DNA from: Cohnella thermotolerans DSM 17683
GTDB taxonomy: Bacteria > Bacillota > Bacilli > Paenibacillales > Paenibacillaceae
Assembly: GCF_000429825.1 (NCBI RefSeq)
Contig: NZ_AUCP01000034.1
Span: forward strand, 1 to 64,000
Reading direction: 5' to 3'
DNA length: 64,000 nucleotides
The position numbers and the translations under genes were made by a program. Below, in pieces: positions 1 to 50,843 of the stretch (position 1 is its first letter; each line of letters starts with the position of its first letter). The notes beneath the pieces are model-generated. The model saw nothing but the letters and a program-made list of their open reading frames with translations. It was not told the DNA's origin and searched no databases.

Positions 1-177
1 GGTCTTAGCATTCGTTTCCGAATGTTATCCCGGTCTTGCGGGCAGGTTGCCTACGTGTTACTCACCCGTCCGCCGCTAACCTTCGCGGGAGCAAGCTCCC
101 TTGAAAGTCCGCTCGACTTGCATGTATTAGGCACGCCGCCAGCGTTCGTCCTGAGCCAGGATCAAACTCTCCATAAA
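1..177 (-). rRNA. rrs: 16S ribosomal RNA, 5' end (partial)
   Basis: The minus strand carries the universal 16S 5' signature (AGAGTTTGATCCTGGCTCAG, complement of 150-169), followed by GACGAACGCTGGCGGCGTGC. The rest of the molecule lies beyond the left edge, so only about 177 nt are present. Transcription runs leftwards, away from all other genes here. The exact mature 5' end (about 176-178) is inferred by analogy with Bacillus. Confidence 0.97.
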
Positions 178-536
178 GGTAATCCTTATTGAAGAGCCCC
201 GTTGGCTCAAAAAGTCAAATCGTTGTCCGCCACTCAAACGAGTGACAGGGTCCGTATTACGCTCGATGTTCAGTTTTCAAGGAACAAGTTTGTTGCGTTC
301 GTCGCGATCGCCGTTTTCGGCGGCGACAGAAATAAATATTATCAGCTTCTCAAAAGTATGTCAACTACTTTTTTTGAAACTCTTTTAAACTTGGCCGCCC
401 TTTCGAAGCGGCGAAGAATAATGTACCATAGGTCGCCCATCGATTACAAGCACCATTATATGGAGTTTCCTCTCTTCTGCCGAGCTTGGCTAAGCCGTCG
501 ATTTTACGTATTTCGCTTCATAAATATATAAAACAG
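178..536 (-). promoter_or_regulatory. rRNA operon leader and promoter region
   Basis: About 360 bases precede the 16S gene with no credible gene. The stretch is A+T rich compared with its surroundings, as rrn leaders usually are. The best promoter is at 336-364 (listed separately). A second perfect TATAAT (minus strand, 455-460) has no good -35 hexamer and could be the -10 of an upstream tandem rrn promoter. I see no tRNA. Confidence 0.6.
336..364 (-). promoter_or_regulatory. rRNA promoter (SigA type)
   Basis: The minus strand reads TTGACA (359-364), a 17-bp spacer, then TAATAT (336-341). It lies about 160 bp upstream of the 16S 5' end, the usual arrangement for a Firmicute rrn P2 promoter. 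Confidence 0.8.
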
Positions 537-565
537 TTGACGATTAATACCCAATCGGTTAAGTT
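537..565 (+). promoter_or_regulatory. Promoter for the DUF4395 gene
   Basis: TTGACG (537-542), 17 bp, TAAGTT (560-565). It sits about 44 bp upstream of the start codon at 609, pointing the right way and divergent from the rRNA promoter. Confidence 0.5.
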
Positions 566-608
566 GGAATTAACGGGTTAACCATTTACGTTTCGGAGGT
601 GTCTCCTC

Positions 609-1022
609 ATGCGTGAGATTCCGATGCCCTATATTAAAGCGAATCAGACGGGAATCGTCCTCTTCGTCATCCTCTCCTTCCTGTTCCAACAACCTTGGCT
701 GCTGGCGGTATTATGGATCGTTCAAGCGGTCGGTCTGTTTACGGGCGGCAAATGGAACGCGTTCGTGCGGCTGGCTAAGCCGTTTCTGCGGACGGAAGGC
801 CGCGAGACGCAGGCCGAGGAACTGCAGCGCTTCAACAATTCGTTGGCCGTTCTGTTCCTCACCTTGTCCTTGCTCTCCTTCCTAATCGGCTGGACGATCG
901 CCGGTTACGTGTTTGCGGCCATGCTGCTTCTGGCTGCCGGGGTGGCTTTGCTCGGCTATTGCATCGGCTGCACGGTTTATTTTCAATACAAGCGTCTGGC
1001 CAGAAAGGCAAAAATGCTATAA
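609..1022 (+). CDS. DUF4395 family membrane protein
   Basis: A protein of 137 residues that I place in the DUF4395 family, whose function is unknown. It starts MREIPMP, a common opening for the family, and has two hydrophobic hairpins (about residues 15-45 and 75-120). The family-typical G-Y-C-x2-C element lies near the C terminus (about residue 117), so a redox or metal role is possible but unproven. The start is supported by GGAGGT at 595-600, eight bases upstream; a second ATG at 624 is less well placed. The gene stands alone, with its own promoter and a strong terminator. Confidence 0.8.
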   Translation: MREIPMPYIKANQTGIVLFVILSFLFQQPWLLAVLWIVQAVGLFTGGKWNAFVRLAKPFLRTEGRETQAEELQRFNNSLAVLFLTLSLLSFLIGWTIAGYVFAAMLLLAAGVALLGYCIGCTVYFQYKRLARKAKML

Positions 1023-16671: not shown

Positions 16672-16925
16672 GCTGCGTTAATCCTCCTCTCTTGTCGCGC
16701 AACAAAAAAAACCTTGCCCATGAGCGGCCCGGCTATCGTAACGCCGGAAGATACCGGCGAAGTAGACCCGTGGCTTTGCGTCTCCGACTTTCGTACGGAT
16801 TTGCCTTTGTTCATGCCCGGTTTTCAGATGCGGAAAATCGGACTTCTCGCCCGGTCTTGACGAACTATATATCGACAAATGCCTGCAGAAATTAAAGAGG
16901 GGGGATTGGCGGCGCCTTGGCGGAC
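16672..16925. other. Upstream region of the HtrA-like gene
   Basis: About 250 bases lie between the protease start and the terminator of the DUF2759 gene. It should contain the promoter of the protease pair, but I cannot point to a convincing -35/-10 pair. No gene is supported. Confidence 0.4.
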
Positions 16926-36332: not shown

Positions 36333-36410
36333 AAAAACCCGCAAGCATCATCGCCGGCCCCCGGCAACGACATGCGTTGCCGAAGACCGTCTGCGCGATA
36401 CTCCCGGGCT
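36333..36410 (-). terminator. Riboswitch expression platform (attenuator)
   Basis: On the minus strand, the conserved 3' end of the aptamer (CCCGGGAGTATC) can pair instead with GATGATGCTTGCGGG, which is followed by TTTTT (36333-36337). Between them lies a perfect GGCAACG-CATGT-CGTTGCC hairpin. This is the usual logic for this class: without ligand the terminator forms, and with guanidine the aptamer holds its 3' strand and transcription goes on. Confidence 0.6.
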
Positions 36411-36518
36411 TTTGTCCCTCCGTGCTCGCCGCCCCCTTATCGGTCGGCGCCTTCCCTCTCGGACCCGTCCGGCGCGGCTCGCCCTTGCGCGAGACGACTG
36501 TGCCGCGGAACCCTAGGG
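36397..36518 (-). ncRNA. Guanidine-I riboswitch (ykkC class)
   Basis: The minus strand contains the three hallmark blocks in order: CTAGGGTTCCG (36506-36516), GGTCCGAGAGG (around 36460) and GGGACAAAAGCCCGGGAG (ending about 36401). These are the conserved parts of the ykkC/guanidine-I aptamer. It lies between a good promoter and a paired SMR exporter, the best-known gene set controlled by this riboswitch. The middle is more G+C rich than usual. Confidence 0.93.
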
Positions 36519-36536
36519 AACGTTCGATGTGGTCTT

Positions 36537-48678: not shown

Positions 48679-49863
48679 TCATTGCTTCGCCGACAAAGCG
48701 GCCGCCTGTTCGGACAATACGGCGGCGATGATGGCGACCGCTTCTTCGATCTCCTCCGCAGTGACGAGCAGGTTCGGCAGCAAGCGCAGCACGTTCGGCC
48801 CCGCCGTAATGACGAGCAGTCCGCGATGCTGCAGCGCCGCGACGATGTCCGCGACCGGACCGGCGCATTCGATGCCGACGAGCAAGCCTTTGCCGCGCAC
48901 CTCGACGACGTTCGGCAGCCCGTTCAGCGCTTCCTTCAGCTTGCCGATCAGCAGCTCACCGGAAGCCGCGGCCCGCTCGGGCGCCTGTTCGAGAAGCATC
49001 GTCTCGATCGTCGCCGCGACGGCGGCGGTGGCGATCGGCGTTCCGCTGAACGTCGAACCGTGGGAGCCGGCGGTAAAGGCCGGAATGAGCGGAGCCTTGG
49101 CCAGCATGGCGCCAACCGGGAAGCCGCTGCCGATTCCTTTAGCCAGGGTGAAGATGTCCGGCTCGATGCCGTAATGCTCGTAGGCGAACATTTTCCCCGT
49201 GCGTCCCATCCCGGTTTGAATCTCGTCCACAATGAGCAGCAGCCCCTGGCGGTCGCACAGCTCGCGCACCGCGCGCAAGAACGCGGGATCGACCTCGTGG
49301 ACGCCGCCTTCCGCTTGAATAAGCTCGAGCATAATAGCGGCCGTCTTGTCGTTCACCGCCGCCTCCAGCGCCGCTAGATCGTTCAGCGGCACGTGCACGA
49401 AGCCCTCCGGCAGCGGCAGGAATCCTTCCTTCACCTTATCTTGACCCGTCGCCGTCAGCGTAGCCAGCGTCCGCCCGTGAAACGACCGGGTAAATGTGAT
49501 AATCTCGTAGCGGCCGTTGCCGAGCACCTTCTGATGGTAGCGGCGGGCGAGCTTGATCGCCGCTTCGTTCGCCTCCGCGCCGCTGTTGCAGAAGAAGACG
49601 GCGTCGGCGCAGCTGTTGTCGGTCAGCAGCTTGGCCGCTTTCTCCTGATTCGGATTGTAGAACAGATTGGATACGTGCCACAGTTGGTCGAGCTGGCTGA
49701 CGAGCGCGTTTTTCACCCGCTCCGGAACGTGCCCCAGACTCGTCACCGCGATGCCGGTCATGAAGTCGAGGTATTCCTTGCCCTGATCGTCCCAAAGCCG
49801 GCTTCCCTTCCCCTTGACCAAAGTGATCGGATAACGCGCAAAGGTAGGAAACAAACTGCTCAT
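48679..49863 (-). CDS. argD: Acetylornithine aminotransferase
   Basis: A class III PLP aminotransferase of 394 residues that makes N-acetylornithine. FCNSGAEANEAAIKLAR, FHGRTLATLTATGQ, VDEIQTGMGRTG and the PLP-binding Lys in FTLAKGIGSGFPVGA are seen. The ATG at 49863 is preceded by GGGAGAG. A longer open frame runs back through argB, but there it is only the shadow of argB in another frame. It is separated from argB by 194 bp, most of it one large inverted-repeat element. Confidence 0.96.
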   Translation of the reverse strand: MSSLFPTFARYPITLVKGKGSRLWDDQGKEYLDFMTGIAVTSLGHVPERVKNALVSQLDQLWHVSNLFYNPNQEKAAKLLTDNSCADAVFFCNSGAEANEAAIKLARRYHQKVLGNGRYEIITFTRSFHGRTLATLTATGQDKVKEGFLPLPEGFVHVPLNDLAALEAAVNDKTAAIMLELIQAEGGVHEVDPAFLRAVRELCDRQGLLLIVDEIQTGMGRTGKMFAYEHYGIEPDIFTLAKGIGSGFPVGAMLAKAPLIPAFTAGSHGSTFSGTPIATAAVAATIETMLLEQAPERAAASGELLIGKLKEALNGLPNVVEVRGKGLLVGIECAGPVADIVAALQHRGLLVITAGPNVLRLLPNLLVTAEEIEEAVAIIAAVLSEQAAALSAKQ

Positions 49864-49909
49864 GCCGAACTCTCCCTTCGTATTGGGCGACGACTCAACC
49901 TTAACAGCA

Positions 49910-50018
49910 CGGATCGTTCTTCCGCTCGCTGTTGCCCGCAGATTCCTGGGATCGATAACCCCTAGCAGGGTGGGAATCTGCGGACAAAGGCGATCACTTC
50001 GTTGCTCCAGAACGATCC
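49910..50018. repeat. Nested inverted-repeat element between argB and argD
   Basis: Two perfect 11-bp inverted repeats are nested: CGGATCGTTCT (49910-49920) with AGAACGATCCG (50008-50018), and CCGCAGATTCC (49935-49945) with GGAATCTGCGG (49972-49982). Inside the second is a small CCC-TGCTA-GGG hairpin. In the argB-argD transcript this would fold into a three-tier structure of about 109 nt, ending some 47 nt before the argD start. It is no standard terminator (no T run) and matches no riboswitch or T-box I know. Confidence 0.8.
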
Positions 50019-50057
50019 GCTCTTTGCCGGTTGATTCATCGCCTGATTTTTTTAACA

Positions 50058-50843
50058 CTACCCCCGCAAAATGCGGGTCCCAATGCCGCCCTCGCGCACG
50101 GCTCTGCTCAGCACGCGCGGCTCCGCGCCGTTGACGATGACCACTTCCCGCACGTCCCCGTGCAGGCAGCTCATCGCCGCGCGCACCTTCGGAATCATGC
50201 CGCCGTAAATCTCGCCGCTCGCGATCATCTCTTCGATCTCGGCGAACGTGACTTGCGGCAGCACCTTCTTCTCGCCGTCCACTGTCCGCATAATGCCGGG
50301 GACGTCGGTGACGACGATCATGGCGCTCACGCCAAGGCGGGACGCGACCGCCCCGGCCGCCGTGTCCGCGTTGATGTTGTAGCGCTGCCCTTCGGCGTCG
50401 ATGCCGATCGGCGCAATGACGGGCAGGTAGCCTAGCCCGATAATGCCTTCGATCAGCGCCGCGTTCACGCCGGTAATGTCGCCGACGAAGCCGATCTCGT
50501 CGGCGTTCGCGACCGGCCGCGCCTCGATCAACCGGCCGTCCGTGCCGGACAGGCCGAGCGCCTTCGCCCCGTTCTGCTGCAGCCTTCGAACGATCTCCTT
50601 GTTGATCCGTCCCGCGAGCACCATCTCGACGACCTCGAGCGTCGCCTCGTCGGTGGCGCGAAGACCGTTCACGAACCGGCTCTCGATGCCGAGCTTGCCG
50701 AGCGTCTCGTTGATCGCCGGGCCGCCCCCGTGAACGATGACCGGCTGGATGCCGCCGTTCTGAAGCTCCGTCAAATCCTGAAAAAAGGCGTCCGGCAGCG
50801 CAGCCAGCGTGCTGCCTCCGCATTTCATCACGAACCGTTCCAT
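50058..50843 (-). CDS. argB: Acetylglutamate kinase
   Basis: An amino-acid kinase fold of 261 residues that phosphorylates N-acetylglutamate, the second step of the pathway and often feedback-controlled. FVMKCGGSTLAALP, VIVHGGGPAINETL, NINADTAAGAVASRLG and GGMIPKVRAAMSCL are typical. It lacks the N-terminal extension of arginine-inhibited hexameric forms, so feedback inhibition by arginine is less likely (inference). AGGAGG is 9 bases before the ATG, 13 bp after argJ. Confidence 0.96.
   Translation of the reverse strand: MERFVMKCGGSTLAALPDAFFQDLTELQNGGIQPVIVHGGGPAINETLGKLGIESRFVNGLRATDEATLEVVEMVLAGRINKEIVRRLQQNGAKALGLSGTDGRLIEARPVANADEIGFVGDITGVNAALIEGIIGLGYLPVIAPIGIDAEGQRYNINADTAAGAVASRLGVSAMIVVTDVPGIMRTVDGEKKVLPQVTFAEIEEMIASGEIYGGMIPKVRAAMSCLHGDVREVVIVNGAEPRVLSRAVREGGIGTRILRG

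Follow-up and report, generated by a model that had tools for sequence, protein, structure and literature searches.

The element that lies between argB and argD of Cohnella thermotolerans DSM 17683 is very probably a mobile repeat that is conserved in structure and travels in the arginine operon as a passenger. It was analysed in a window of 64,000 nucleotides, which is the whole stretch of DNA considered here. The evidence comes from the stability of its fold, from relatives at unrelated loci throughout the order Paenibacillales, from base pairs that change together in diverged copies, and from orthologous sites where the element is missing. That the folded form is single-stranded DNA is a further step, which we regard as plausible but short of probable.

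Position and fold of the window copy

The arginine genes of the window (argC-J-B-D-F-G-H) are all encoded on the minus strand, and the element is therefore read on this strand, which is that of the arg mRNA. As the initial annotation had stated, the gap between argB (50058–50843, minus strand) and argD (48679–49863, minus strand) is 194 bp long, whereas that between argJ and argB is 13 bp. Its two nested 11-bp inverted repeats are also real. The outer repeat, P1, pairs CGGATCGTTCT at 49910–49920 with AGAACGATCCG at 50009–50019, which places its end at 50019 rather than 50018, and the inner repeat pairs CCGCAGATTCC at 49936–49946 with GGAATCTGCGG at 49973–49983; CCCC (49959–49962) and GGG (49968–49970) are found close to the tip. 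The extent of 109 nt first assigned to the element is too short, as a third, imperfect outer arm (49886–49920/50009–50043, 35 nt, 77% complementary) belongs to a full palindrome of 158 nt at 49886–50043, within which both nested repeats lie. The features of this copy are as follows.

49886..50043, minus strand: whole palindromic element of about 158 nt with tips GGCGATGAATC...GAGTCGTCGCC and outer arms, between argB and argD; we infer its exact ends from the outer arms and from the empty gap of genome G001 compared with the filled gap of genome G006
49906..50024, minus strand: conserved core of the fold, where covariance model R1 scores 128.6 bits
50009..50019, minus strand: 5′ arm of helix P1 (the outer repeat first annotated); 8 of 10 P1 pairs covary
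49910..49920, minus strand: 3′ arm of helix P1, pairing with 50009..50019
49996..50002, minus strand: mini-hairpin AC-GAA-GT with a GNA triloop, closed by A-T here and by G-C in other copies
49973..49983, minus strand: 5′ arm of the inner helix (the inner repeat first annotated); 13 of 15 inner-helix pairs covary
49936..49946, minus strand: 3′ arm of the inner helix, pairing with 49973..49983
49947..49972, minus strand: variable tip with a small GGG/CCCC hairpin, in which the helix is weakly kept, with 58% of cells paired

The stems had been judged improbable by chance, and the fold is indeed far beyond it. As RNA, the element folds with −84.7 kcal/mol, compared with −54.6 ± 4.3 kcal/mol in dinucleotide shuffles (z = −7.0), and the corresponding z-scores for single-stranded DNA are −6.8 for this strand and −5.9 for the opposite one. 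No T run is present 3′ of the element, and no Rfam 15 family covers it at gathering or relaxed thresholds, both in agreement with what had been noted from the letters. Elsewhere in the window, Rfam identified a guanidine-I riboswitch (36399–36527, minus strand, 66.8 bits, above gathering), a c-di-GMP-I riboswitch (16720–16815, minus strand, 62.1 bits), and the 5′ part of a 16S rRNA gene (1–177, minus strand), which is cut off by the window start.

Distribution across Paenibacillales

In the same genome, BLAST revealed one more complete copy and a partial copy on another contig; among the 60 relatives searched, four congeners had further copies, and one genome from a different family matched weakly. 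All of these copies share one asymmetry, a GGAGnAACGAAGTG bulge in one of the arms, by which their orientation is defined. Twelve copies were used to build covariance model R1 (119 positions, 34 pairs), which matched 19 of 37 same-genus genomes, including a distant subgroup in which the outer helix is of wholly different sequence while the internal motifs are the same. The search over Paenibacillaceae that had been proposed at the outset, with its question of recurrence away from the arginine genes, found full-length relatives in 122 of 150 genomes, as well as in other families of the order, at unrelated, non-arg loci. Copy numbers per genome are lower bounds, as scoring took in at most 24 or 45 candidates, and lie between 1 and 45 or more. 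Matches of the model on the antisense strand were rejected as additional copies, being the palindrome seen from behind.

A degenerate core pattern was also run against 84,980 species, and Paenibacillus, Cohnella and one "Bacillus sp." were among the matches listed. No virus record matched the core pattern, the viral contigs and phage records were also free of the element, and among plasmids it occurred in one, a Paenibacillus megaplasmid. Tandem arrays were encountered in two genomes, with five copies at G081:C1:562775–563696 (spacing of about 222 bp) and three at G140:C1:5421718–5422105 (about 182 bp). At another locus (L041), a T-box-like leader at 392–645 (minus strand, 58.8 bits, below gathering) lies beside a copy of the element and not on it.

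Selection on the fold

Covariation was measured in alignment A6, in which 55 diverged copies were aligned by MAFFT and not fitted to the structure. In this alignment, 91.8% of cells pair, compared with 70.6% in shuffles, and changes on both sides occur in 29 of 35 base pairs, with 419 such cells versus 127 in shuffles. The covariation score is 0.582, as opposed to 0.187 for shuffled alignments and at most 0.182 for slid partners. Judged by these compensatory changes, the core of the element is under structural selection, and the early suggestion of selection on a fold is borne out. It had also been proposed that many unrelated genomic copies would reduce the element to a plain dispersed repeat; such copies do exist, but the term undersells the element because its stems covary across many diverged copies.

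Amid the changing stems, several unpaired motifs stay fixed, namely, a GGA/GGA internal loop, the GNA mini-hairpin, and GCCUUUG/CAACAGC. The loop of the mini-hairpin is GNA in nearly all copies and GNNA in a few, and its closing pair (24–35 in A6) is GC in 32 copies, AT in 22, and another combination in 1. In well-aligned pairs, G-T outnumbers A-C by 49 to 10, and one strand is therefore the folded strand.

Empty sites and target duplication

The argB–argD gap was compared in 30 congeners, the window included. The element is present in two of them, the window and G006, and 28 gaps are without it, most being only 2–60 bp long. The window and G006 copies align throughout, which is consistent with one shared insertion, and comparison with the 28 gaps lacking the element supports reading the window copy as an insertion. 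The gap of G006 (553 bp, locus L118, upstream of argD) additionally holds tandem CCGCCAAAATGGnnGTTACAGAGC-like repeat copies beside the element.

A Paenibacillus copy in genome G183 (locus L358) has a clean empty orthologous site in seven same-genus relatives. The empty site reads CTTTTGTTAGCTCAGG (G103; CTTTTGT-TA-GCTCAGG), and the filled site reads CTTTTGT-TA-[element]-TA-GATCAGG. This proves that TA was duplicated on the clean insertion of this copy, at one locus of one Paenibacillus subfamily, the window copy having different terminal repeats (GGCGATG...). TA duplication is a mark of IS630-type MITEs, and the likeness to the IS630/Tc1 type applies to this one locus and subfamily, which is not that of the window. 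The more general features of MITEs are all found: the element is short (158–200 nt) and non-coding, bears terminal inverted repeats such as CTATATAAGTTGAAC/GTTCAACTTATATAG, and in the G183 copy shows target duplication relative to the seven empty sites. With copies at unrelated loci and empty orthologous sites, the initial annotation was right to list a mobile palindromic element or interspersed repeat among its options.

At locus L245, one copy is nested in the tip loop of another. A preference for palindromic targets is not claimed, as the signal is weak (permutation p = 0.006) and comes mainly from one nested copy. Copies at the L358 site in L473 and L477 contain additional sequence (AAGCTTTCTGAAAGAAAGCTGC...) that separates the bulge arm from the inner helix of the core, perhaps a second small element.

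Orientation of the copies

A reading that we consider possible, if rather unlikely, is that of a dispersed structured RNA, whose core would be co-transcribed with its neighbours and would serve as a protein-binding site or undergo processing, for example, by RNase III, the RNA fold being what is selected. The folding is strand-specific and tolerates G-U pairs, copies are rare in divergent (promoter) gaps, and in co-directional gaps 28 copies are sense and 14 antisense, all as might be expected of an RNA; the bcr repeats of Bacillus cereus are likewise often part of mRNAs (PMC3446304). However, GNA triloops rather than GNRA tetraloops dominate the mini-hairpin, and the copies carried by IS1182 have their folded strand antisense to the transposase gene.

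The orientation of the copies relative to replication bears on the same choice. In six single-contig genomes, the folded strand was concordant with the leading strand for 153 copies and discordant for 46, with the origin assumed at the contig start, an assumption supported by GC skew at 69 of 77 loci. Such concordance means that the folded strand lies on the lagging-strand template, the strand on which IS200/IS605 elements (IS608/ISDra2) act (PMC6006769). In three genomes, gaps on the leading strand held 59 sense and 6 antisense copies, a ratio that would also suit a transcribed RNA, whereas the sense bias is gone in lagging-strand gaps, with 4 sense and 6 antisense (Fisher p = 0.0007; the split comprises only 10 lagging-strand gaps of one genus, with heuristic gene calls and some copies common to the genomes). 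In the same three genomes, where flanking genes point in opposite ways, convergent and divergent gaps still showed a bias of 19 leading to 7 lagging. The lagging-strand gaps and the convergent and divergent gaps together suggest an influence of replication direction over and above that of transcription, in favour of the single-stranded DNA reading rather than the RNA. The genomes are not uniform: with the origin so assumed, G162 is free of strand bias, and in G140 alone orientation fits gene direction. Overall, orientation seems to follow replication direction more than gene direction, and a purely gene-driven orientation is disfavoured by the 4:6 ratio, small as the number of lagging-strand gaps is and heuristic as the gene calls are.

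Candidate mobilising enzymes

The terminal repeats of the element vary between subfamilies, while the core is constant. An improbable alternative is that the element belongs to the REP/RAYT type and that a Y1 (HUH) tyrosine transposase mobilises it by acting on the folded single-stranded DNA of the lagging strand. The folded strand does lie on the lagging-strand template, as for IS608/ISDra2, and unpaired motifs are conserved within variable stems. REP/RAYT systems have a Y1 transposase in the genome or beside the repeats, but no Y1_Tnp (IS200/IS605) transposase was found in the copy-rich genomes G001, G006, G003, G016, G183, G176, and G126, and a Y1/RAYT transposase was rejected as the mobiliser on this ground; moreover, TA duplication and terminal inverted repeats are not the REP pattern, and there is no GTAG tag.

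The only transposases that recur beside copies are of the IS1182 type (identified by NF033551, 1.6e-136). In a Cohnella subgroup, the element lies inside IS1182, flanked by the transposase gene on one side and the right terminal repeat on the other, at 8 or more loci, so that all other copies might be remnants of such insertion sequences. We consider this very improbable: most copies are without IS1182 ends, G001 has 7 copies and no IS1182 transposase, and the element is present in only 6 of 30 fetched IS1182 loci. IS1182 as the universal parent was rejected, with only some Cohnella copies being IS1182-borne, and it is more likely that one subgroup of the element was captured by an IS1182 than that IS1182 was the source of all copies. 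Rfam "Ref64" (Enterococcus sRNA 64) gave matches below gathering (L059 1390–1461, L057 1394–1463, and L053 1660–1731) beside the element, in the hairpin that leads into IS1182 transposase genes; Ref64 may itself be an IS1182 leader.

The arginine operon

A role of the argB–argD element as a riboswitch, an attenuator or a processing site, of the metabolite-sensing or attenuating kind first envisaged, is hardly credible: the element does sit inside the operon with a very stable fold and fills the same gap in one related genome (G006), but a riboswitch or leader would keep its place before arg genes, and only 2 of 30 gaps hold the element, relatives lie at purF–purM, fakA–degV, and many other non-arg loci, and neither a T run nor an Rfam match accompanies it. 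The 28 empty gaps together with these non-arg relatives refute arginine regulation as the function of the family. A copy-specific effect of the window element on the arg genes is possible; most likely, the element is a passenger in the operon.

Comparison with known repeat families

Open papers were searched by title and abstract for Paenibacillus palindromic, REP, MITE, structured-RNA, and interspersed repeats, subscription papers lying outside this scope, and none of them describes the element. The bcr1–bcr18 repeats of the Bacillus cereus group, of which bcr1–3 are MITE-like and bcr10 and bcr18 have conserved RNA folds (PMC3446304), are similarly dispersed, intergenic, structured Firmicutes repeats, often in transcribed gaps. 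However, they belong to another host group, no match in sequence or fold is seen here, and the present element joins MITE behaviour with very deep covariation and spans an order. ERIC, which folds into one long stem-loop (PMC2267715), Correia/NEMIS, and RUP are likewise palindromic intergenic MITEs of 100–200 bp with few to many copies. TA duplication, as in MITEs of the IS630 type, is a further common point. Unlike these families, the element has no Rfam match, several types of terminal repeat are fitted to one core, and its stem sequences differ almost entirely from copy to copy, whereas the unpaired motifs inside are fixed.

REP/BIME sequences with their RAYT share a folded single strand that is kept by structure and tied to the lagging-strand template (PMC3733652, PMC6006769), whereas the core described here is longer, has a junction mini-hairpin, and is accompanied by the terminal inverted repeats and TA duplication given above, in the absence of the GTAG tag and, in several copy-rich genomes, of the Y1 transposase. 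The mini-hairpin obeys the loop rule of the extraordinarily stable DNA mini-hairpins d(GCGNAGC), with their GNA/GNNA loops (PMC4686876), including the rare GNNA. The latter are a structural motif and not a mobile family, and the A-T-closed ACGAAGT of the window falls below the published G-C requirement.

Proposed mode of mobility and significance

In our preferred explanation, the mobile passenger would be an order-wide (Paenibacillales), non-autonomous element of the MITE type, about 160–200 bp long, whose ends an IS630/Tc1-like transposase that duplicates TA would cut and join in trans, with another transposase doing so in other subfamilies. A TA-duplicating DDE transposase needs no folded single strand, and selection on the core is therefore unexplained by that route. 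A putative factor would read the core as a folded single strand, more likely single-stranded DNA of the lagging-strand template than RNA. Any effect of the hairpin on argD expression would be incidental. We tentatively suggest, while regarding it as doubtful, that the family represents mobile elements of a new class, in which lagging-strand DNA exposed by replication would fold into a junction with DNA-favoured motifs (the GNA mini-hairpin and the GGA/GGA loop) recognised by a putative factor, and in which one core would have come to be combined with several unrelated terminal repeats and with one carrier, an IS1182.

The family occurs in about four-fifths of the Paenibacillaceae genomes sampled, many of which carry tens of copies, and is absent from Rfam and the searchable papers. 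It shapes operons and intergenic sequence in an order that matters both to ecology and to industry. The covariation of its pairs suggests that some further protein or process recognises the folded nucleic acid, and the biased orientation of its copies offers a direct handle on whether single-stranded DNA at the replication fork is the substrate.
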